64,000 nt of DNA, from positions 620,001 to 684,000 of the forward strand of contig JAQJZZ010000021.1 of the NCBI GenBank assembly GCA_030077755.1, written 5' to 3'. Of the stretch, positions 40,755 through 55,946 are shown piece by piece. A model generated the notes under the pieces. It saw only the letters and a list, made by a program, of their open reading frames with translations. It searched no databases and was not told where the DNA came from. Source of the stretch: Filosporella fistucella (taxonomy: Eukaryota > Ascomycota > Leotiomycetes > Helotiales). Positions within the stretch are counted from its first letter, which is position 1. Each line of letters opens with the position of its first letter. The translations under genes and the position numbers were made by a program.

Positions 40755-43700
40755 ATGAGTTCAACTATGACATGTTTGCCTTTTGCGGCACAACTCTTTC
40801 CTGGGATTCGCGGCAAAGTTGCCGCGAGCGCACCACAAAGTAGTAACATTACCAAAGCACCGAATTTAGAATGGACAAAAATCGGAGGCCCGGTTCAGGA
40901 AAGTCTCACTCGTGAATTGGAGCAAATGTACTGGGATGGAGTGAAAAGAGAATTATTGCACATTCTACTCACGTTGCGAAAGTGGAGCCAAGCAGAGTTT
41001 GCGGAAACAACACTTGTTGATGAGAAAGATGACTTCATTCATGGATTTGATACGTTTGTGGATCAAGTTAGTGAAGATTCGCGAGATTTTGCTGCGCGAT
41101 ACGATGCGCGGGTGAGGAGATGGAAGAAGGGAGAGCAAATTCCCTGGGCAGCAGGGCTAGCTGATATGGGGAAAGATATGGATGCCGATTGGAAAAGCTC
41201 AAATATCAAGATGCAGATCAGAGACAATCTAGCAGGTGAGTATTATCATTTTACTACTTACCAATGTTAACATCGTGAAGGCAGGAAAGAATATAAGGTC
41301 ATCGAGAGGCGAGCTAGGATGCTGCTTCAGAGTGCTGGTCAGTGAAGCGACCAAAGTCTCAATGTATAGTTTATCTGGCTCACACATTTAGGATTCCTCG
41401 ATATCGACAAATTGATCGAATATCGTGCTCCTGAAAGGCTTGTAACGTTTTGGAAGAGACCGGCAGCCCCACAACGTCAGTCAGTCTCCACGGTGAATTT
41501 CTCACAGGGCTAATTGGCAGCAGTAACCTTAACGAATTTCGACGACACTTATATGCCCTCTTTCAGGTCACTAGAATGCTCAGAGTGTGAACACACCATC
41601 CGCGGTTGCATGTTTCAAAAAGTTCAGGCTGTCACTCTAGATGAAAAGGCAGCAGTCAGGAAAAGAGAAAAAGAGAATATCAGCTTGATCAATGTGTGCG
41701 AAAGCTGTTACAGAGACAACCATTATGGCGATCCAAATTTCACCAAATCGTACAAACACTGCATCTTGCGAGAGCACATTCACAAAGATGAAAGTCAATC
41801 AATCTGTCGCTGCAGCAATGTGCCTAAGATCGACTCAGAAGGAAGCTTGCGGAGTCTATTCCCAGTCGCCGCTGACGAAGACCATCGGGGCTCTGGGGAC
41901 ACTCGTGGGGTCAAGTGCGGTCTTCTCAATCTTGGGAGATTGAGTGCTGAAGCAAAATACCAAGGCATGCTCTCGAAACATGAAAAGCAAGTATCTTTGG
42001 ATGATCAGAAGCGACTCAATGATATCCAGAAAGAGAAGAGGGCAGAGAAAGAGGCGATGATGAATAGCTTGAAGCTGAAGGGCATGAAGACGATCAACAA
42101 GAAGAGTTTGGTTGATGAAAAGAATAGGGAAGCGGAAGGCGGACAGTCGACTGTGTGAGTGATCATCTTTTTTGATTTATTCGAGAATTCGACAATTCTA
42201 CCCATCACTGTTAGATTTCATTTAGTAAAAGTCTCCTGCTAACTTGAATTGAAGAATGGAAGAGGCGGAAGCAGACGAGGATGTCCCATTTTTCATGCGA
42301 AAATTTACGAATCGCTATCCCTTCGGAAATGTGCATGTTGCCTTGCGAGTTGGGCCATTGATTATCGAAAACGGGGTTGAGCAGTAAGTATAATACCTTA
42401 ATTCGGTTGAACCAAACTCATATATTATAAAGCGTCCGAGGTGCACTTATTACGAGTCGAGATCCTCCGAATCTGCAAGTTCTCCGCGATTCAGATCGTG
42501 AAATCGAATACAGTCTTGCCCTCAACGGAGACACAGAGCGCAATCTCCACTGCCAATATAGAACAGACAGAAAGCCTAAAAGATACAAAGCTATCATGAA
42601 ACAAGTCGTCGGAGGACTTTTCTCGGGTCTCTCAAACACCACCTTGGAGGACTTGATCGTTGCTGCACTCATTCGTGAAAGCGGACGAAATTTCGACAAG
42701 TCGCCTTCGGACGAAGAGAAATTGCTCGGTCGCGCGACAAGCAGACTTCACGCATTGATGAGACAACTCGTTGGCCCGAGAATTGAAGTGTATCTCCAAA
42801 GCGTCGCCTCCAAACTTTTGGACCCAGAAACCAACCTTCACTGGAACTTCCATTCTAACAACTGTCAGAATTTCTGCGACGCTCTCTTAGATAAAGAGCT
42901 CTTTGGATCATTGGTAGCGCCGGCATCTTTCGCACCCAAAGACATGGAAGATCCACTCTATCTTATGAGCTTCGTATCTCGTCCTAGCAGCTATGCTAAG
43001 GACACCGTGAAGAATAAATTCGACGTCCCATCGGGTCTCATCGAAGAGTATCTGCTCAAGTTCCGCTATGGTCGACACGACGAATCTGATGTCGTCGATA
43101 CCTTGCAAGAATATTGGTATGATTGGGGTGCCTTTGGTGGGCCAATCTACAAATATGGAGAAGTCTTTCCATGGGATTGTACAGAAGCATATGGTCGATA
43201 CCCCGCCATCTGCAATGATTGCAATATCTCTAAACACGTATGGGCATTTCCATTCGACTCATTCTCCATCTCGTCACTACATCTCACCAAAGACCGTAAC
43301 CACTACCCACCGATCGATCTAGAGAACCCGCATCCCATTACCGATCTTGAGTGGATGCAAAATCGTCTCACTGTCCTCTTAGCCCAAGATGTTCTCCTCA
43401 CAGCCGCTGTAGCGATGGCCAAAAGTCCCGCTTTCCACGAAGCCACTGCATGGCTTCATGACCACGAGAACCCGAAAGTGGACAGACTTAAATTAGGTGG
43501 CATACATCGAGCTCAACCTTTCAGTCATAGTTTTGAGCAAGGAAAATATCATCATTATTTCATTGCTGAATGGGCTCATTTTGAGCGAGCTGAGCAGATT
43601 CGCAGGTACGAGTTGCTCAGAGATGGGAGGGTCAAGCAACCGGATGTAGATAAAGTGCCAGCTGAGTTCAATGATGATAATAGCGGTGGATGTGGAGGGT

Positions 43701-43831
43701 GTGGAGGAGGAGGCGGTGGTTGTGGAGGAGGTTGTGGAACCGGGACTTGTGCTGTTTCTTGCTCTACCTGTAGCGGAGCAGCGGACGGCGGGTGTGGAGG
43801 ATGCGGAGGTTGTGGAGGGTGTGGAGGTTAA
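40755..43831 (+). CDS. Large protein with LRAT/NlpC-like papain fold and Cys/Gly-rich tail
   Basis: Six exons: 40755-41235, 41281-41337, 41392-41475, 41521-42154, 42255-42383 and 42433-43831, 927 residues, all junctions in phase. The N-terminal third is helical and unrecognised. Residues ~215-290 form a ZZ-like Cys/His segment: CSECEHTIRGC, then VCESCYRDNHYG, then CILREHIH, then CRC. The catalytic-looking part has FGNVHVALRVG (His ~446) and, far downstream, HSNNCQNFCDALL (Cys ~606). That His-before-Cys order is typical of permuted papain folds such as LRAT or PPPDE. The protein ends in a ~49-residue tail with 11 Cys in GGC repeats. Hydrolase or acyltransferase activity is inference; the two motif distances are longer than in LRAT. 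Confidence 0.72.
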
Positions 43832-45763: not shown

Positions 45764-47861
45764 CTAGGGCATACTGTTACCTCCTATCACCCAAAAACTG
45801 CCCAGGTAGCACTGTTCAATTCGCAGTTTTAAAGTCACTGGTAAGGAATGGGTAAATGACGCGTCTGAAAGAACGTTCTTGATAATCTGCACAATGTCAG
45901 AACCTCAGATGCAAGATACCATTTCAGTCTTTAAGCTGTATCCGAGCTCACGTCTGGACTTACATCTTTGATTCCCTCGATATCAACCAGGCTCGCTTCC
46001 AAAGTATTCTTGAACCTCATCTGTAGTAATCCAGAGCCGATACTGATTCCCATAGCGATTCCAATCTGCTGGCTCATGTAATACATACCAATTGCAGTGG
46101 CCATATATTCCTTTGGAGCGGTCGTCGACAGACCAATAAATTGTGTTGAAGAAATGATCCCAGTAAAGAATCCTGCCAGAAAAGTTGCAGCAGCTGCTTC
46201 AAAGTATCCGATTGCGTGGGACCACGTCATCAGAATGAGTATAGATACGGCAATACTGAGGAACAAAGACACGAGAGATAGTTTCTTGTAGCCGCCCAGT
46301 CTGACAACCGCTTATATTAGTGGCAGTCCAGAGATGATGTGAGTTGTAACTAACGATTTAATAGCTTGACCGGCAACGAGGGCACCCAATGCGTTGCCTA
46401 TACTTGTTGGAATAATGTATGACCCAGCAGCTGCATCAGAGAGATCCTGGGTTCTCGAAAAGTAAGGAGCAATATGTGAGACAAACTAAGCCACCTTCAG
46501 TAGACGGACAATTAGTAACTAGTTGGAAAAACATACAGCATGACGACCACCAAGTATCAATAATTGAGCTAAACAGAAGATACCAACTTCTGTTTTCAGC
46601 AGCCATAATGGAATCAGTGGCTTGCGTCTGCCTGTATACATTTCTGACAAAATGAAAACGAGCACTGAGGATGAACCAATCAGAATGGTGCAAAGCACAG
46701 GAGCCTGGGTCCAGAGCTGAGTCCTCTTGAGATCGATGACAACGAGCAGGGAAGTGACTGCCGAAGCAAGGCTTAAAGCTCCAGGAAAATCAAAATTGCC
46801 GATACTGAAGCAATCAGGAAGATCACAGTCTCTTTCCGTACATTCTGGGCTAGGTGAACTCCCAGATATAACGCTATCATGTAGACTCCAGTAAATGAGT
46901 ACGCAGCAAAATACTGCAACTGGTACCTGGCATAGGAAAGACCTAGAGAGTCAGTACCGGACGCCAGGTAACCGAATTTTGACGGGGTACTCACCATCTC
47001 CAGCCTGCACTCCCAGTGATAAGGCCGCCTATAGGTCCACCAAGAGATATTCCAACCACGGCGGCAACATTGACGTAACTTCTGAGAATGGCAACTTCAG
47101 AAGGAGGAGCAAGATCTATTGCCAGTCAGACGGCACATTTTTCATTCAAGCAAATTTGCTTACCTGTAATGATGATGGAAGCAAGTGAAGTCATCCCCGA
47201 AGCTCCAAACCCAGCAATGACTCTGCCAATAATGACTTGCCAAAAGTTCTGACCAAGTCCACTGTATAAACATGTCAGTCCCAGTTCATCAGCTTCTCTC
47301 CAAAAAAACGTCAAGTGACAAGGTTCAGGGGACAATGTTGACCTACGAGATAGTACATCCAAGGCAGAACAAAGAGTAAGAAGTGATCAGCGGCCGAAGT
47401 CTGCCATATGTATCACTTAGTTGCCCATACTGAATAAGGTTAGTATTAATATTGTATAAATCCGACACCGCTTCCACCAAGCAAGCAGGATGCGATTGAT
47501 AGACGTACTAAAGGCAAAGTAACACAATATCCAATTGTAAAACTCGTCATCATCCATGATGCATTTCTCAGCTCATTGAATCGCGAAGCTACAGTCTCAT
47601 GAGTAGCCCATACTAGAGATGTATCTGCAGCCGCTAGTAGAATACCTGTATCCTCATCAGTTTGACACGATAATCATACAGGAGAAGTAGAGAATATCTA
47701 CCCAGTACTGCAGCTACAAGACCTATCTTGTCCCGTGACGAGAGCTTGAATACTCCCTTTGGCACAACCTTTCCATTCTCTTCAGGCCATGCCTGATCTG
47801 GATCGATTGCTTCTGGTGCTAGCAAGGGAGTTCTTTCAGTTGGCTCCTCTCGGGCCACCAT
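45764..47861 (-). CDS. DHA2-type MFS transporter
   Basis: Nine exons: 47861-47702, 47645-47509, 47429-47347, 47261-47164, 47115-46995, 46942-46537, 46485-46355, 46300-45964 and 45886-45764, 531 residues in one frame. The N-terminus MVAREEPTERTPLL carries a dileucine-like motif seen on vacuolar transporters. AADTSLVWAT, LYGQLSDTYGRLRPLI (motif A) and GRVIAGFGASGMTS (motif B) are followed by DLAPPSEVAILRS, GPIGGLITGSAGWRWSF (motif C region) and a second half with FVSHIAPYFSRTQDLSD. The pattern is the drug:H+ antiporter-2 group including vacuolar basic amino acid transporters. The exact C-terminus is unsure: the last exon could splice once more. It lies 889 bases from the synthetase-like gene on the same strand, so export of a small product is a reasonable inference. 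Confidence 0.85.
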
Positions 47862-48750: not shown

Positions 48751-50122
48751 TCATGCGTCATCTAAGTATCCATTCCGATCTGCAGCTTGCCACGCCTTGT
48801 CTCCAGCATATGCCACTCTTACTCCCTCGAGAAGAATATTTAATGCACTCCCTACACCCAGTTTCAATATCGTAGTATCCAACAGCCCCTGGTCAAGTCC
48901 CTCTTGAATCTCATCGTAACTGTGAAAGCTCACGGTCTTGCCATTGACTTCCACGCTGAACACAACTATTTCCTCCTTGTGTGCTAGCGAGCAACGTCTG
49001 GCTTTGAGCTCGGCAGCTGGAATCAATATATATCTCAGAATACCCAGAATCCCATTGGTGTCTGGATTATTCCCAGCCCATGGCGCCTCGGCAAGTTTTT
49101 GTACGACCACATCTGGGCTATCAAGAATACGAATCTTGGTATTTGAGGGATGTGAAGAGGACATCTTGGTTCCTAGGAGATTCAATAGCATCGTATTCAT
49201 CATCCTTGTGCGATTTCTGTAGCCGAGCTGTGGTAAGAAGTGGTCGGCGAATGCAAATATTTTTGCCTATAATTTCTCTCGTCAGTCTAAACGCTCACAA
49301 CACTGTAGACCCATGATCGTTTTCATGGCCAACTCAGGATGTGAGATTCTCAAGTGAGCAGTTTTCATACCTGATCTCTTCCACCCAGCTGCACATCAAT
49401 ATCTAATTGCTCTTCTGCCAGTGCTTGAAAGCCTGGCCCCAGTAATGGACTCAACATAGCCGGATTATAGCTGCCACCAGCTGCTTCCTTTGCTGCTTCT
49501 TCGGATACAATCGCACATAAGCGCCATTGATCCATCATGCATTTTTTGTCAAATTGGTAATCAGATTGTTGGATAAACTTTACTTGTGATGCCGGTACGC
49601 CAAGCGCTTGAAGTGTGGCTGCGATTGTGTACTTGTAATATTCCATGCGATATATGACCTGCTCCATCGGATGTTCGACATTGGTCATGAAAGAGTAAAG
49701 ATCAGCGAGCTTGATAGTAATCTATGAAACGTTTGAATATTCATAGCGATATTGACCAATAGAGGGAGAGCGAAGGAGGACCGACCTCGCATCCTGCATC
49801 AAGAAAATCGACGAGCTTCAGTAGAGGGATAAAATATCCGATATGTACTAGAGAATCTTAAACCAATAGGAAAGTTTCAAGATTATGAAAACCTACATTT
49901 CCCAGTTGGGGCCGTCACTGTAGAAGGTATGTCAGTACGGAGGAAGCGTAATCAATAGTGTTCTACAAACCTACTCCATGCGACTTTTGGATTTCTTTTC
50001 CCCTCCTCCAGGATGTGTTTCAGAATCTCAAGATTGCTGATATCTTCCGGCTCCAGACCTCGAGTGATCAAAGCCAGACGCTCCTCTGCCGTCATAACAG
50101 GTTGTGAGCCGGTGTTCCCCAT
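48751..50122 (-). CDS. Tyrosyl-tRNA synthetase-like enzyme with altered amino-acid pocket
   Basis: Exons 50122-49975, 49917-49897 (21 nt), 49847-49786, 49721-49371 and 49266-48751, 365 residues. Class Ic fold of the archaeal/eukaryotic cytosolic TyrRS type. ATP motifs are intact: APTGKLHIGYF (HIGH-like, His58) and TKMSSS (KMSKS-like, 228-232). GGRDQ keeps Gln194, and Gln176 is kept. The three tyrosine-contact positions are changed: Ala48 in VAWMTAPTG (Tyr in IYWGTATTG of normal enzymes), Gly172 in LLGPGFQAL (Tyr in LLYPGLQAL) and Ala179 in QALAEE (Asp in QALDEE). These equal human Tyr39, Tyr166 and Asp173 as I recall the family alignment. It is a paralogue unlikely to charge tyrosine, probably pathway-dedicated. 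Divergent from the oxygenase gene. Confidence 0.85.
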
Positions 50123-50369
50123 TGTAATATAGTCTTTGCTTAATTAGTATATTTAGATACGAAATGCAAGAGGCTTGTGGTTGAGGTAGTAGTATTTATC
50201 GTAGAAAAGAAATGACATGAAGCTAAGAATGGCTTTCAGAGACTTTGTTGACAGAATTATTCTATTCCAGATTCTAGGTCTCAATATGGGTCAGCCTTGA
50301 TAGGACTAGTTGAGACAATTGTCTATTCTCACAAGCCTACCATAGGTTCTGCTGAGACTTGTTGCCGCT

Positions 50370-50422
50370 CCAATAAGTGCTCGAATCAGCGGACGTCCAT
50401 ATAAGTCGTCGGGAGCACCCGA
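50370..50422. promoter_or_regulatory. Clustered motifs in shared promoter: CCAAT, GGACGTCC, CGG-N6-CCG
   Basis: The 488-base divergent promoter (50123-50610) contains CCAAT at 50370-50374, the palindrome GGACGTCC at 50391-50398 and an inverted repeat TCGGGAGCACCCGA at 50409-50422. The last contains CGG-N6-CCG, the spacing class bound by dimeric Zn2Cys6 regulators. They lie about 190-240 bases from the oxygenase start and 250-300 from the synthetase start. Co-regulation is inferred. Confidence 0.45.
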
Positions 50423-50610
50423 GCAGTAAGACACAACCACTTTGACCGAAGTGTACTCAAACCGTGCGCCATAAACCCAGCCACGTATGAAAAACAAGTC
50501 AAAGTTTTGGGATTCAATATCAGATATAAAAGCCCATTAATTCTCTGCAGAATCATCAAATACAAGATACGCAACCAAAACAAGCACTCACATTACATTT
50601 TCCTGCAACA

Positions 50611-51480
50611 ATGGAACAGAATAACGAACAGTCAGTCCCCACTGTGAACCTGACGACGATCTCTCTGTCCAAAATACGCCTCAACGACAAATCGGAGATG
50701 AGTTTGCTTTTACAAGCCGCTTCCAGCATAGGGTTCTTCTACCTTGATTTGAGAGATGATTCGACGGGAGAGCAGGTGCTGGCAGACTTACCAGCGATCT
50801 ATGGACTCATAGACACCTACTTTGGTCAGCCCTGCACCCTCAAGATCAATGATGCTAGAAAGGACATTCTTCCGTCCCAGGATCTGGGTTGGAAAGGGTA
50901 TGGAAGTACGGAAATGTTCGAGGTACAATGATCCGATTTCCCACTAATATTGCGAAGCTGACAGGAGTAATAACAGGCATCTCAGTATGAGATGATATCC
51001 ACTGGGACTTCGCATCTCCCACAAGCCTTTCAGGAGGTGGGCGAACAAGTCCTGCGATTCAGCGCCGCGTGTAACGATGCCTGCATGGTTGTGATCCAGA
51101 GTCTTGCTCCAGATATTGTGGCGCATCACCGCCTTGACCACCCAAGTGACACGGGTCTGAAGTTGATCACTGGCCCGACACTCGCGAAGAAGGAGGATAT
51201 GCCTGAGAACAAGCACACCGACAACGGGACGCTCACACTTCAATTCTACAATGAGTGGGGTTTGCATGCAGTCTCACCCGATACAGGCATTTGGGGCTTC
51301 ATCCCTCAGGTCGAAGGTTGCGCCGTCATCAATATTGCCAATTCGCTGCAGCAGCTATCGAATGGGAAATTCCACTCGCCCGAGCATCGAATAACGCAGC
51401 CATTTGACGGGGTGAGAAAGAGGGCGTATATCAGTTACTTTTTGAGGCCTGAAAACGAAGCTGTATCTGAGACAAAATAG
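50611..51480 (+). CDS. Fe(II)/2-oxoglutarate-dependent oxygenase (isopenicillin N synthase-like)
   Basis: Exons 50611-50922 and 50977-51480, 271 residues. N-terminal DIOX_N-like part (VNLTTISLSKIRL, SSIGFFYLDLRDD). The catalytic double-stranded beta-helix has KHTDNGTLTLQF (HxD, His184 and Asp186), distal iron His in FHSPEHRI (His241) and RKRAYISYF for 2-oxoglutarate binding (Arg253). At 271 residues it is shorter than the usual 320-350 of this fungal group, mainly at the C-terminus. Such enzymes hydroxylate, desaturate or cyclise in fungal secondary metabolism. The divergent promoter shared with the synthetase-like gene suggests that it acts on the amino acid or product that enzyme handles (inference). 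Confidence 0.9.
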
Positions 51481-54400
51481 CTTCAGGAAAATGAATGAGA
51501 GACATGGGTTTTGCCAGTCATCTATATCGTGATTGGTCAAAAACCAAGTGGCGTGCAGAAGAAGAAATAGCTAGACAAAGGATAGTAATTGGTGTCTGAG
51601 GCGGTGTCGTAATACACGCCAATACTCCTATACCAGGGTAATAATTGTACCAGCTACTAAAATATTTTATACTTAATCGAGTAATGCTTGGTTGAATCCA
51701 GTTTCCTGATTTGCTAAGATACCCTGACAATGGAGAAGCTGCCACAAACAAATTTACAATTATTTCCCCAAGTGACCATAGTAGCATCTTGGATGTTGGC
51801 ATGATCGAGAAAATATCCAAAAATCCTGGTCAAGATCGCGGGATAAAAACGATCATCACATGATACACACGTGATGATTGTTCCAGACCTCTGTCCCAGA
51901 AGCTTGTCTCAATCTTTGATAGCAACACAGTTTTGACTTCAAGTATTACTCTCTTTGATTATAATAGAACAGCTCTAGGTACCCAAATTGCAAAGTCGCA
52001 TCTTGTCATGGTTCCCTTCGTTTCATTCACTGGATTTTCGTTCACGCTCAATATCAGAGTCAAGGGCTCTGTACTTTGAAGTCAAATTAAACTACATTAC
52101 TCTGTGCGAAAATTAGCTATGAATATAATACTTAGTTCTTTTTAAGTATGATTAAGAGGGTGATTTAAGAATCAGTGGGTTTTCCGTCGGATGGTTCTAC
52201 TATTATAGGAATTTGTCGTGAGCAGCCGAAGCGGCCTGGAAATGCTGATTTGAATATTCTCTATACAAATAGTCACTAAGCTCTACAAACTGGGATATAC
52301 TTCATATTATATTGTGTAGTGAAGATAGGGTGACCTAAATCCAATCCACTTACAGTCGGCGACGGTGGCAAGAGGTGACGGTTGTCTCTGTTAACGACGA
52401 CACTTCACAGTAACAGACAGTCAACATTATTTCAAGACTCTACTATATCTTCAATGCTCTTTTGAAAAGCATTTGACAAAGTACGCCTAGCGCGCTACGC
52501 GCGGCATGTTTAATCGTGCTAATTTGGTGGACTCGTCTGAGGTGGAAAGTCGTGCATAGAGTTATCTCATTCTATGCCTCTGAGATCTTAAGAAACAGAA
52601 GATATTATTTGACGCCTCTAATTCTATAATAAGAATAGTCATTTTCATCTTTAACCCACAGTCCTCAGTAAATATTCGATGTCACCCCTCCCAAATCAAT
52701 TCGTGCAATTTATCTTCAACTTTCCTTTTTCAATGCCCTCTTTCCGAATGCAGCCACATTCAAGATCCCAATATGGGCAGCACTTCCCGTATAACTGTGA
52801 TATAAAAGCAGACTACAATCACATCAGCTCATAGAGGTCTTGAGCAGCTTACTGGCGCTACAATTGGCTTAGCGACTATTCCGAGCTCTTTCCAAGCTCG
52901 AATGGAGACACTGTTCCTTCCTTACCTATGGAAGTTTGTGTTAGTCTACATAGACGGTATCATCGTGCTCTCCACGTCTAGGTCTTAGTTCATACCATAC
53001 TGAAAAACGATGCCCATTTGACATATGCTGTTGGGTTTCTGAAATTGCTTTTGTTGTGAGGGGTTATATTGTTGAATAGTGTTCCCACGTCCAACTTACT
53101 CACGTTCATTAACCCGGAGGTCCATTAGTGTGTTCTTCACCAAATAGGTAACAATCAAGGGCGAAAAGGTTTGGGTGTAAGCCATGAACAGCTCTTCGGG
53201 AGTTGTACCAAGGAATTTGGGGTTCGAAGTCCCATTTCCTGAATGTTTTTGCAATTTCTTTTTGCCACTATCCGCAATTTTTCTTTTTAGAAAAGATTTC
53301 CTACTTGAGTGATCAAAGATAATGAGGGAAAGGCTGGGAGAATTGACGACGGTTGAAGAGTGACGACAATTAGGTAAACATTGACAACAATTCAACCATT
53401 AACACTTACCACGCCTTCACCCACCAACCACATAACTCCACACCTTCTCTCAAAACTCATCACAACTCACCCCCTCCCCTTGCCTTAAATTTTAAATCAC
53501 CCTTCGCATACAAAATTATCTCAAAACATGGTTCTTCCCTGAACTTACTCTGCCGACCTGGTTTTGATTTGTGAAGTCTAGGAACTGTTCCGATTTTGGA
53601 AAAGAAAAGGAGAGAATGGGAGAGAGGGTGAAAGTATCTATACGCCTCCACAGCAACCAAGCGCTGCATGAGGAAGTAAGCACTCTGGAAAATGGATGAA
53701 TAATCAAATGAGCGAGGTGTTCGAAATAATTGGTGAAAAATCGAATTCGAGGTATATCTGATTCTATGAATTGAGGGAATGTTAAATTTGAACTCTCACA
53801 AATAGTCATGCCTTCCACATCCCTAACTAGGAATCCAGCAATGACTCAAACGAGTATATAACCAAGACCTTGAACTCTACAATCGATCTCTCTAGAAAAC
53901 CACAAGGAAGTCGCTAGGGATCTTGCCGTCCGAGTATTCGGCACCAAGAGAACTATGATGGTTCATGATGGATCATCTTCTATCAATAAACCCCAGATGC
54001 AAACCCAGCAGGCTTTGAGCTTGAAAAACTTTCAAGGTATAGGTGAGACATTTTACAGTTGAAAAATCTGGATGAGAGTGTGATTTTCTGACCCTGGCGA
54101 AGTTGACGGTGGTGAAAGTTGACTAACGCTTTCTACCAGCCACACCTCAGGTAACAATTCCCGACACTCCTCATCCCTCATTCCCCATTCCTACTCTCCA
54201 GCAGCGATTCTGGAAGTTTCCTCCGGTCTAGTCTTCCAATGGATGAATATTGAGAGGTTTCTAACAGAGAGGGGGAGGGAAACTGGAATTGGAAGGAAGG
54301 AGAGAGGGAGGGAGGGGAGTAAGTAAGTGAATGATCAAATTTGTCAAAAAGAAGTGATATATGAAGGTGAGGTTTGCTGAGGGTAAATTGATATCGGCTG

Positions 54401-54567: not shown

Positions 54568-55946
54568 CTATAACTTTCCCTTCTCCGGCGCCCCTGGTCG
54601 TCCACCAAAACCCCATCTAATCTGATTCGCAACATTAATCTGCACCCCCAATTCCTCAGCCCAACTCCACACCAGTCCCGGATTCTTCTGAAACATGCGT
54701 CCCGCAAACACCGCATCTAATTCCTGGTTTCCTCTCGTATCTTTCTCGTTTCCTTTACCGGTAAGTAGTGCTTCGGCTTGAGTACCAGTAGTGATTGTTC
54801 CAACAGTGGTAACGAGTAATTTCGAGCCTACGCTCTCTTTGATCTTCTTGGCGAAGGGAGCTTGGTAGCCCAGACCAGGTTGGATTTTCTGTTGAGGGTG
54901 GTTACCTCCTGATGAGACATCGAGGAGATCGACTCCTCTCTCAGCAAGCAGATGTGCGAGTTTAACGGAATCCTCTACCGTCCAGCTTTCTCCCTTGAAC
55001 TCAGGGTTTGTGTCTAGCCAGTCACTTGCGCTCAAGCGCAGGAAGAGTGGCATATCCTTTGGCATTTCTTTTCTTGTTAATTCGACGATTTCGAGGGTAA
55101 GTCGAACTCGGTTCTCGAAGGAGCCACCATATTTATCTGTTCGGGTGTTGGAGACCGGAGATAGAAATTCGTGGAAGAGATAGCCGTGAGCATTATGGAT
55201 CTCGATAACGTCGAAGCCAGCTTTCAGAGCGCGCTTGACACCAGCCACCCAGGCTTTCTTCAAATCTTCAATATCCTGTTCGGACATAGCACTTGGCTGA
55301 GCATGATCATTGTTATAAGCAATTGCACTCGGTGCTTTAACGTTCTTGGGCCAACCTTTGACGTCTTCTGTAGCCAGAGCGCCGGCACTCAACCATGGTG
55401 CAACAGTACTTGCTTTTCTGCCAGCATGCGCAAGTTGGATAGCGATCTTCTGGCCTTGGGAATGTGCGAATTCGACAATTTTTGCGAGACCCCATTCGCC
55501 GGTAACATGATCATCTTTCCAGATTCCTGAATCTTCGGGGGTGATACGTCCTTCTGGCAGGACGGCTGTAGCTTCAATCATACTCAGACCTGGTCCACGC
55601 GAGATGATACCACCCAGATGGGCGAAATGCCATGCTGTGAGGTGCCCATCTTCAGCAGAGTATTGACATAGCGGCGAAAGAAAAATGCGATTTTGGAGAG
55701 CGAGGCCACGGATGGTAAGAGGTTGGAAGAGTTTGGGGATTGTTTTATTGTCCGGTTGAGGGTCGGATGCTGTGCCTGAAGGAGGAACTTGTGCGGGAGT
55801 GAAGTATGAGATCTGTTGCAAGTTAGAAACAGATCCATTCAGAGATATTGGACACAAGAACATACTCCCGGTGCAGCTTTATTAGGGATACCCTCTTCAT
55901 GTGCAGTCTCACCATGTTTTTGGGGGACGGCGTGATGTGTCGACAT
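54568..55946 (-). CDS. NADH:flavin oxidoreductase / Old Yellow Enzyme (YqjM-like)
   Basis: Exons 55946-55866 and 55812-54568, 441 residues. FMN-dependent TIM-barrel ene-reductase. Seen: LFQPLTIRGLALQNRIFLSP at the barrel start, the thermophilic-like SPLCQYSAEDGHLTAWH segment (Cys and Tyr that tune FMN), and IAIQLAHAGRKAS. IEIHNAHGYLFHEFLSPVSN supplies the substrate-binding HNAH, and LRLSASDWLD and VTTVGTITTGTQAE (phosphate site) follow. The start at 55946 (MSTHHAVPQKHGETAH) gives the typical NKAAPGISYFTPAQ leader across the intron. Natural substrates of fungal OYEs are alpha,beta-unsaturated carbonyls. It is separated from the oxygenase gene by the gene-poor island, so pathway membership is doubtful. 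Confidence 0.93.

Follow-up and report, generated by a model that had tools for sequence, protein, structure and literature searches.

We propose that a protein of Filosporella fistucella resembling tyrosyl-tRNA synthetase (TyrRS) is a neofunctionalised adenylate-forming ligase, which would act on a substrate other than tyrosine and would not charge tRNA-Tyr; from its sequence we give this reading a probability of about 0.58. By sequence, the protein belongs to one clade in which the class Ic fold and the ATP motifs are retained and both the tyrosine contacts and the readers of tRNA-Tyr are lost. The gene is located in a stretch of 64,000 nt, here called the window (positions 620,001 to 684,000 of JAQJZZ010000021.1, referred to as contig 19 in the genome search). 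An earlier note on this DNA had singled out the gene as a TyrRS paralogue with an intact ATP site and three altered tyrosine-contact residues.

Structure of the TyrRS-like gene

The gene occupies complement 50122..48751 and consists of five exons separated by GT..AG introns, which yield a stop-free frame of 365 amino acids (Table 1). In this spliced model, the numbers assigned in the earlier note to A48, H58, G172, Q176, A179, Q194 and K228 are exact, and its statement that the HIGY and KMSSS motifs are unbroken and Gln176 and Gln194 intact is borne out. Intron 1 (GTAGGT..CTACAG) interrupts the codon of residue 50, and the Met found there, at the position of human Gly41, hinges on that splice. 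A corrected splice pattern restoring Tyr/Tyr/Asp, which the note had considered, is ruled out because the three codons lie inside exons, that of A48 in exon 1 and those of G172 and A179 in exon 4.

The window protein scored 105.9 bits against the Pfam domain PF00579 (cut-off 21.1) and fell below the cut-offs of both TyrRS models in NCBIfam, with 125.6 against 220 for the curated model NF006330 and 83.1 against 113.8 for TIGR00234. Three other members of the family described below also fell short of both cut-offs, whereas all three canonical controls passed, these being the TYS1 of the same genome (a partial frame) and two others.

Table 1. Positions within the window of the exons of the TyrRS-like gene and of neighbouring features.
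Feature	Position	Strand	Remarks
TyrRS-like gene, exon 1	49975..50122	-	start codon at 50122; carries A48 (human Tyr39 position)
TyrRS-like gene, exon 2	49897..49917	-	TAPTGK loop
TyrRS-like gene, exon 3	49786..49847	-	HIGY motif
TyrRS-like gene, exon 4	49371..49721	-	K81, Y86, shortened CP1 loop, G172, Q176, A179, Q194
TyrRS-like gene, exon 5	48751..49266	-	KMSSS 228-232, C-terminal domain, I327 (anticodon-reading Asp position), W353
Intergenic stretch, 488 bp	50123..50610	.	between TyrRS-like gene and divergent oxygenase gene; possible shared promoter
2OG-Fe(II) oxygenase gene	50611..51480	+	exons 50611-50922 and 50977-51480; 271 aa; spliced by eye
Probable MFS transporter gene	45931..47861	-	several exons; pieces match MFS_1 and TRI12, all under Pfam cut-offs
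NADH:flavin oxidoreductase gene, old yellow enzyme type	54568..55863	-	PF00724, 190.1 bits (cut-off 27)

Other synthetase genes in the genome

A six-frame search of the genome (45.8 Mb in 19 contigs) for the class Ic family recovered, on contig 7 (L002), a cytosolic TyrRS of canonical type whose three contact positions are Tyr, Tyr and Asp; this is the TYS1 whose presence the earlier note had asked to have confirmed. The same search yielded two TrpRS genes and, on contig 1, a TyrRS of bacterial type that is presumably mitochondrial, all named from their translated frames. When the window protein itself was compared with the genome, the best candidates scored gave five matches, of which four lay within its own gene and the fifth was the contig 7 gene. 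The idea that the window gene is the sole TyrRS of the genome was rejected on account of the canonical cytosolic copy on contig 7. Near a TrpRS gene on contig 19, a small frame on the plus strand (L004:3157-3285) encodes a short leader followed by tandem copies of YVGGGGCQVMR, a putative repeated small peptide.

Remodelling of the tyrosine pocket

The TyrRS of Methanocaldococcus jannaschii (Mj; the sequence used is identical to PDB 1j1u over 306 residues) was placed in the same alignment, in which its Y32, Y151, Q155, D158 and Q173 correspond to Y39, Y166, Q170, D173 and Q188 of the human enzyme and to A48, G172, Q176, A179 and Q194 of the window protein. The replacement of Tyr39, Tyr166 and Asp173 by Ala48, Gly172 and Ala179, as aligned in the earlier note, is thereby confirmed. 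In the Mj enzyme, the phenol hydroxyl is held by Tyr32 and Asp158 (PMC9499402) and the amino group by Tyr151, Gln155 and Gln173 (PMC11723616). Both hydroxyl contacts are absent from the window protein (Ala48, Ala179); of the amino-group contacts, Gln176 and Gln194 are present and Tyr166 has become Gly172.

The window protein also carries the changes L72K, H77Y and G41M, the last of which depends on the splice of intron 1, and it has lost three residues of CP1 and the anticodon-reading Asp308; none of these was listed in the earlier note. The earlier picture of concerted change at three residues, with no decay elsewhere, is therefore not supported in that form, in view of these additional changes, among them losses of tRNA-Tyr readers. 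The same holds for its suggestion that small replacements simply open the pocket: judged from the sequence, the pocket is remodelled and more than merely opened, as seen from H77Y, which is shared by the whole family, and L72K. Position 65 of the Mj enzyme, which corresponds to human 72, lies <5 Angstrom from the substrate (PMC11723616) and is altered in engineered TyrRS variants that accept bulky tyrosine derivatives (PMC9499402). In the window protein this position is Lys81, close to where the hydroxyl contacts were lost.

For the window protein alone, near-invariant columns were lost at 7 of 13 positions in the 5-Angstrom tyrosine shell and at 9 of 36 outside it, an excess that is not significant (Fisher p=0.062; p=0.106 with column 166 left out). 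Across the family, loss in half or more of the 27 members affected 8 of 13 columns in the shell versus 6 of 36 outside (p=0.004), and the enrichment persisted when the family-defining column 166 was removed (p=0.009).

A clade of TyrRS-like proteins in filamentous ascomycetes

The alignment contained 160 rows, namely the 156 TyrRS-type matches listed, the window protein, the TYS1 of the same genome, and the human and yeast enzymes. The matches listed were the best 120 of 368 in one of two protein searches, both of which scored only the candidates sharing most words, and the family thus numbers at least 27 rows. All family counts rest on this one automatic alignment, and the comparison set includes few filamentous-ascomycete TyrRS sequences besides that of the window genome. 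We split the rows by human Tyr166 alone, which gave 27 rows without it and 132 with it; P0027, which has a gap there and is probably a further, 28th member whose gene model is faulty, was set aside and excluded from the counts. Since Tyr166 defined the split, its loss in 27/27 is not independent evidence; the members carry Cys (16), Thr (8), Val (2) or Gly (1) instead.

All 132 rows bearing Tyr166 also bear Tyr39 and Asp173. Within the family, Tyr39 is present in 3/27 and Asp173 in 4/27, so the window protein is not unique in lacking them (lost in 24 and 23 rows, respectively), and it is alone among the 27 in having Ala at 39 and Gly at 166. Gly41 is found in 11/27 members versus 132/132 of the others, and His77, present in 132/132 others, is Tyr in every family member. 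On the ATP side, His49, Lys222, Met223 and Ser226 are each conserved in 27/27 and Ser224 in 26/27; Gln188 is kept in 27/27 and Gln170 in 25/27.

The Leu72 position is Glu or Asp in all seven proteins of one subclade (P0004, P0005, P0007, P0012, P0062, P0011 and P0022), in which the Asp173 position is Gly, Ser or Ala. Elsewhere in the family it is Lys (the window protein), Leu, Val, Tyr or Phe, with one gap. Because a Lys in the window copy and an acidic residue in the seven-member subclade occupy the same place, the substrates probably differ between members, and the sequences suggest that separate subclades probably use separate substrates.

We also inferred a maximum-likelihood tree from 67 rows, comprising all 27 members and 40 of the 132 others, using an alignment from which the pocket and CP1-loop columns had been removed and in which columns 147 and 308 were retained. 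The 27 rows formed one clade with a support of 100/100, nested in Dikarya TyrRS sequences, and the window protein grouped with proteins from Lasallia, Glutinoglossum and Rhypophila. Among the matches listed, the relatives in the family also include proteins from Endocarpon, Ophiocordyceps, Purpureocillium, Hirsutella, Arthroderma, Aspergillus, Penicillium, Paecilomyces, Chaetomium, Mollisia, Xylogone, Orbilia and others. These genera are filamentous ascomycetes.

An AlphaFold2 model of the relative P0001 had a mean pLDDT of 91.3, and its best PDB match was yeast TyrRS 2dlc, with a TM score of 0.91 by target length and 0.81 by query length; as modelled, the TyrRS fold is intact in this relative, C-terminal domain included. 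In four members from Orbilia and Arthrobotrys (P0029, P0031, P0032 and P0108) the TyrRS-like part is fused to a GNAT domain (PF13302). A fusion of another kind was seen in P0107 from Cutaneotrichosporon, in which a TyrRS of canonical pattern is joined to a PF01259 domain, presumably SAICAR synthetase. Fusions of the TyrRS-PF01259 type are already known in relatives of Cryptococcus (PMC4301749).

Loss of the residues that read tRNA-Tyr

In eukaryotes and archaea, C1-G72 and G34 belong to the tyrosine identity set (PMC9976931). In the Mj enzyme, Asp286, which is said to be conserved in eukaryotes and archaea, contacts G34 through two hydrogen bonds, and Phe261 and His283 stack on the same base (PMC10135938). 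These residues align with human Asp308, Trp283 and His305. A literature search for residues that read C1-G72 gave nothing useful, and we take the CP1 loop and residue 147 (Mj Arg132) to be the readers of this pair.

Within the family, Asp308 is present in 3/27 members versus 131/131 of the others with a letter there, position 283 is aromatic or His in 0/27 versus 126/132, and a basic residue occupies 147 in 1/27 versus 132/132. Residues 153-155 of the CP1 loop, before Tyr166, are missing in 27/27 members; residue 154, for example, is absent from all 27 and present in 131/132 others. Counting the four tRNA-Tyr features together, 23/27 family members have none and 4/27 have one, whereas 125/132 of the others have all four, six have three and one has two. 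The window protein has Glu156 at position 147, lacks loop residues 153-155, and carries Ile327 and Asn302 in place of Asp308 and the aromatic residue at 283. Arg189 (Mj Arg174) is kept in 17/27 members and is Ala in the window protein. Since the lost features are specific to tRNA-Tyr, another tRNA could still be a partner; on the other hand, because they are lost as well as the tyrosine contacts, calling the protein a TyrRS that merely takes a different amino acid may be overly cautious.

Genomic neighbourhood

The TyrRS-like gene is flanked downstream, on the same strand, by the probable MFS gene and on its other side by the divergent oxygenase gene, which scored 43.3 bits against PF03171 (cut-off 23). 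The old yellow enzyme type gene follows 3.1 kb past the oxygenase gene. The oxygenase has 19 database relatives, eight of them with a named organism, and the closest named ones include a protein from Chlorociboria, a leotiomycete. Between these eight holders and the named species of the TyrRS-like family there was no species in common, with Aspergillus species occurring in both lists. Conserved clustering is thus unsupported and we give the neighbourhood little weight; the sequences offer slight support for the view that the neighbours would suit a small-metabolite pathway, and the GNAT fusions are the stronger hint of a pathway.

No core synthase was noticed by eye among the window frames of at least 110 aa, and ARAGORN in its bacterial setting, which an intron-bearing tRNA could escape, found no tRNA gene in the window. 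Other features of the window include a 411-residue frame at 42596-43831 that has no Pfam match and ends in a long Cys/Gly-rich tail. The segment 51500-54500 holds few genes and has a somewhat lower GC content (0.405 and 0.414 at 52-54 kb), and a short frame within it at 52806-52985 resembles, by eye, a remnant of a reverse transcriptase.

Proposed function and alternatives

According to the proposed ligase mechanism, the protein would bind ATP via its HIGH and KMSSS motifs and activate a carboxylic acid as the acyl-adenylate; the acid would not be tyrosine and is probably a non-standard amino acid. This substrate would be held by Gln176 and Gln194, the Tyr166 contact to the amino group having been lost, and the acyl group would be handed to an acceptor that is not tRNA-Tyr, for which a small molecule or a partner acyltransferase is the likeliest candidate. 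The position of Lys81 near the lost hydroxyl contacts leads us to guess, more specifically, that the substrate of the window copy has an acidic or polar side group. Conceivably, though this is weakly supported, the adjacent MFS protein exports the product and the adjacent 2OG oxygenase oxidises it. Selection for another substrate, as argued in the earlier note, agrees with the clade-wide loss of tyrosine contacts in proteins that keep the ATP motifs; that the substrate differs is the part that we infer. The ligase reading has points against it, since the C-terminal domain, which an RNA-free enzyme could be expected to lose, keeps its fold in the modelled relative P0001. For the window copy in particular, the long branch given below could mean relaxed constraint, and the excess of losses in the tyrosine shell was not significant.

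The same C-terminal domain would be accounted for if the protein were still an aminoacyl-tRNA synthetase, one that has taken up another amino acid, pairs with a different tRNA or a less strictly defined one, and feeds a transferase of a secondary pathway. VlmL, which acts with VlmA, and the AspRS part of ErdS (PMC9437257) are precedents for the supply of aminoacyl-tRNA to such a transferase. The GNAT fusions of the Orbilia and Arthrobotrys members and the retention of Arg189 in 17 of the 27 would also fit, and some GNAT-fold enzymes consume aminoacyl-tRNA (PMC2922099). The near-complete loss of the tRNA-Tyr features and, in the window copy, the Ala at the Arg189 position speak against this explanation, and we consider it unlikely. 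We regard as less likely again a protein with a non-catalytic or regulatory role, able to bind ATP or a ligand, in the manner of HisZ among the relatives of HisRS (PMC9437257). Retention of the fold after loss of the tyrosine and tRNA-Tyr readers would be expected of such a protein, but the HIGH and KMSxS residues, invariant in the family except for Ser224 in one member, oppose it, as a non-catalytic binder would not need them.

Decay of the window copy itself through relaxed constraint, whatever its relatives do, is suggested by a branch of 0.92 in the maximum-likelihood tree, compared with 0.19 for P0001 and 0.24 for P0002, by the Ala39 and Gly166 that no other member shares, and by the Ala at Arg189. 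However, the gene has an open frame over five exons with GT..AG introns and unbroken ATP motifs, and the protein retains 43 of 46 near-invariant columns, defined as those in which the other 26 family members show no more than one exception. Given this retention despite the long branch, we take the sequence of the window copy as a sign of fast but constrained evolution and think decay improbable, slightly more so than a non-catalytic role. The lowest probability, a very small one, goes to a spare TyrRS that resists a TyrRS inhibitor made by the fungus. An oxygenase gene and a probable exporter gene adjoin the TyrRS-like gene, and the genome also contains a canonical TYS1, as would be expected of such a system, but a resistant copy must bind tyrosine and tRNA-Tyr, and both sets of contacts are lost; the text of a study on resistance-gene mining in 50 Aspergillus species also contains none of four tRNA-synthetase terms (PMC6517689). 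The spare copy was for this reason rejected as the main reading, in line with the earlier note, which had argued against it and whose argument is strengthened by the finding that the loss of tyrosine contacts is common to a clade retaining the ATP motifs.

Comparison with known systems

Cytosolic TyrRS shares with the TyrRS-like proteins the fold, the HIGH and KMSSS motifs, Gln170 and Gln188, and the window protein is 36 to 42% identical to the TYS1 of its own genome and to the yeast and human enzymes. Unlike cytosolic TyrRS, the family largely lacks Tyr39, His77, Tyr166, Asp173, the CP1 loop residues and Asp308, and the window protein and the three relatives scored fall under the curated cut-offs. 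The ligase that we propose would most resemble, in its general plan, synthetase paralogues that have left translation. For MshC, a paralogue of a class I synthetase, the proposed reaction is adenylation of an amino acid followed by its tRNA-independent transfer to an amine (PMC2922099). MshC has in common with the family a catalytic domain derived from an aminoacyl-tRNA synthetase (aaRS) with ATP motifs, but it is bacterial, derives from CysRS and has a known substrate (cysteine, in mycothiol synthesis), whereas the family is fungal and derived from TyrRS. A bacterial MetRS paralogue has a predicted role in the synthesis of peptide metabolites, with GNAT and 2OG-Fe dioxygenase genes among its associated genes (PMC2922099). 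It is likewise a class I paralogue with GNAT and 2OG-Fe oxygenase associations; it differs in being bacterial and strictly associated with cupins, whereas the 2OG oxygenase next to the TyrRS-like gene is a neighbour in one genome only.

SbzA, an IleRS-like aminoacyl transferase of SB-203208 synthesis, retains HIGH and KMSKS and uses Ile-tRNA (PMC6331615). It is similarly a class I synthetase-like protein with ATP motifs, but has kept the parent amino acid and Ile-tRNA, in contrast to the loss of tyrosine contacts and tRNA-Tyr readers from the TyrRS-like family. ErdS, a fungal AspRS-DUF2156 fusion, combines an aaRS module with an aminoacyl transferase (PMC9437257) and in this respect recalls the GNAT fusions of Orbilia and Arthrobotrys, although its AspRS part charges tRNA-Asp and its fused domain is DUF2156 rather than PF13302. 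Cyclodipeptide synthases have lost the HIGH motif and gained a conserved Ser (PMC2922099), unlike the window protein, which retains HIGY.

Laboratory-evolved Mj TyrRS enzymes are similar to the family in that the Tyr32 and Asp158 positions are altered. A variant for photocaged DOPA has ten changes, including the Tyr32Ala and Asp158Ala that correspond to the residues of the window protein (PMC9499402). Tyr151 is not among the replacements named there, whereas the family lacks Tyr151 and has Tyr for His70 in 27/27.

Significance

Repurposed aaRSs are a known kind of protein, and the TyrRS-like family probably works as an aaRS-derived ligase of this kind. The table of a 2022 review gives no function for a TyrRS paralogue and notes a TyrRS pseudo-dimer in trypanosomes, the function of which is unclear (PMC9437257). 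Among the papers listed by literature searches, judged by title and the start of the abstract, none seemed to describe this fungal family, which may be in print elsewhere, and no TyrRS paralogue of this kind appeared in passages about resistance-gene mining or about fungal aaRS catalogues.

As a broader and distinctly tentative suggestion, which we hold with less than even confidence, filamentous ascomycetes could possess diversified, RNA-free acyl-adenylate ligases derived from TyrRS, with a changeable pocket (positions 39, 72, 166 and 173) as a natural counterpart of engineered TyrRS libraries. Each subclade would then have a non-protein amino acid or an aromatic acid of its own to activate, and the products would be small amides or esters of a metabolite class not yet described. 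If the proposed function is correct, proteins of this family that are named tyrosine--tRNA ligase in databases are misnamed and may be overlooked by genome miners. The family would also represent natural solutions at the positions that engineers alter for loading unnatural amino acids, and the stepwise conversion of an essential translation enzyme to another function would become a testable question.
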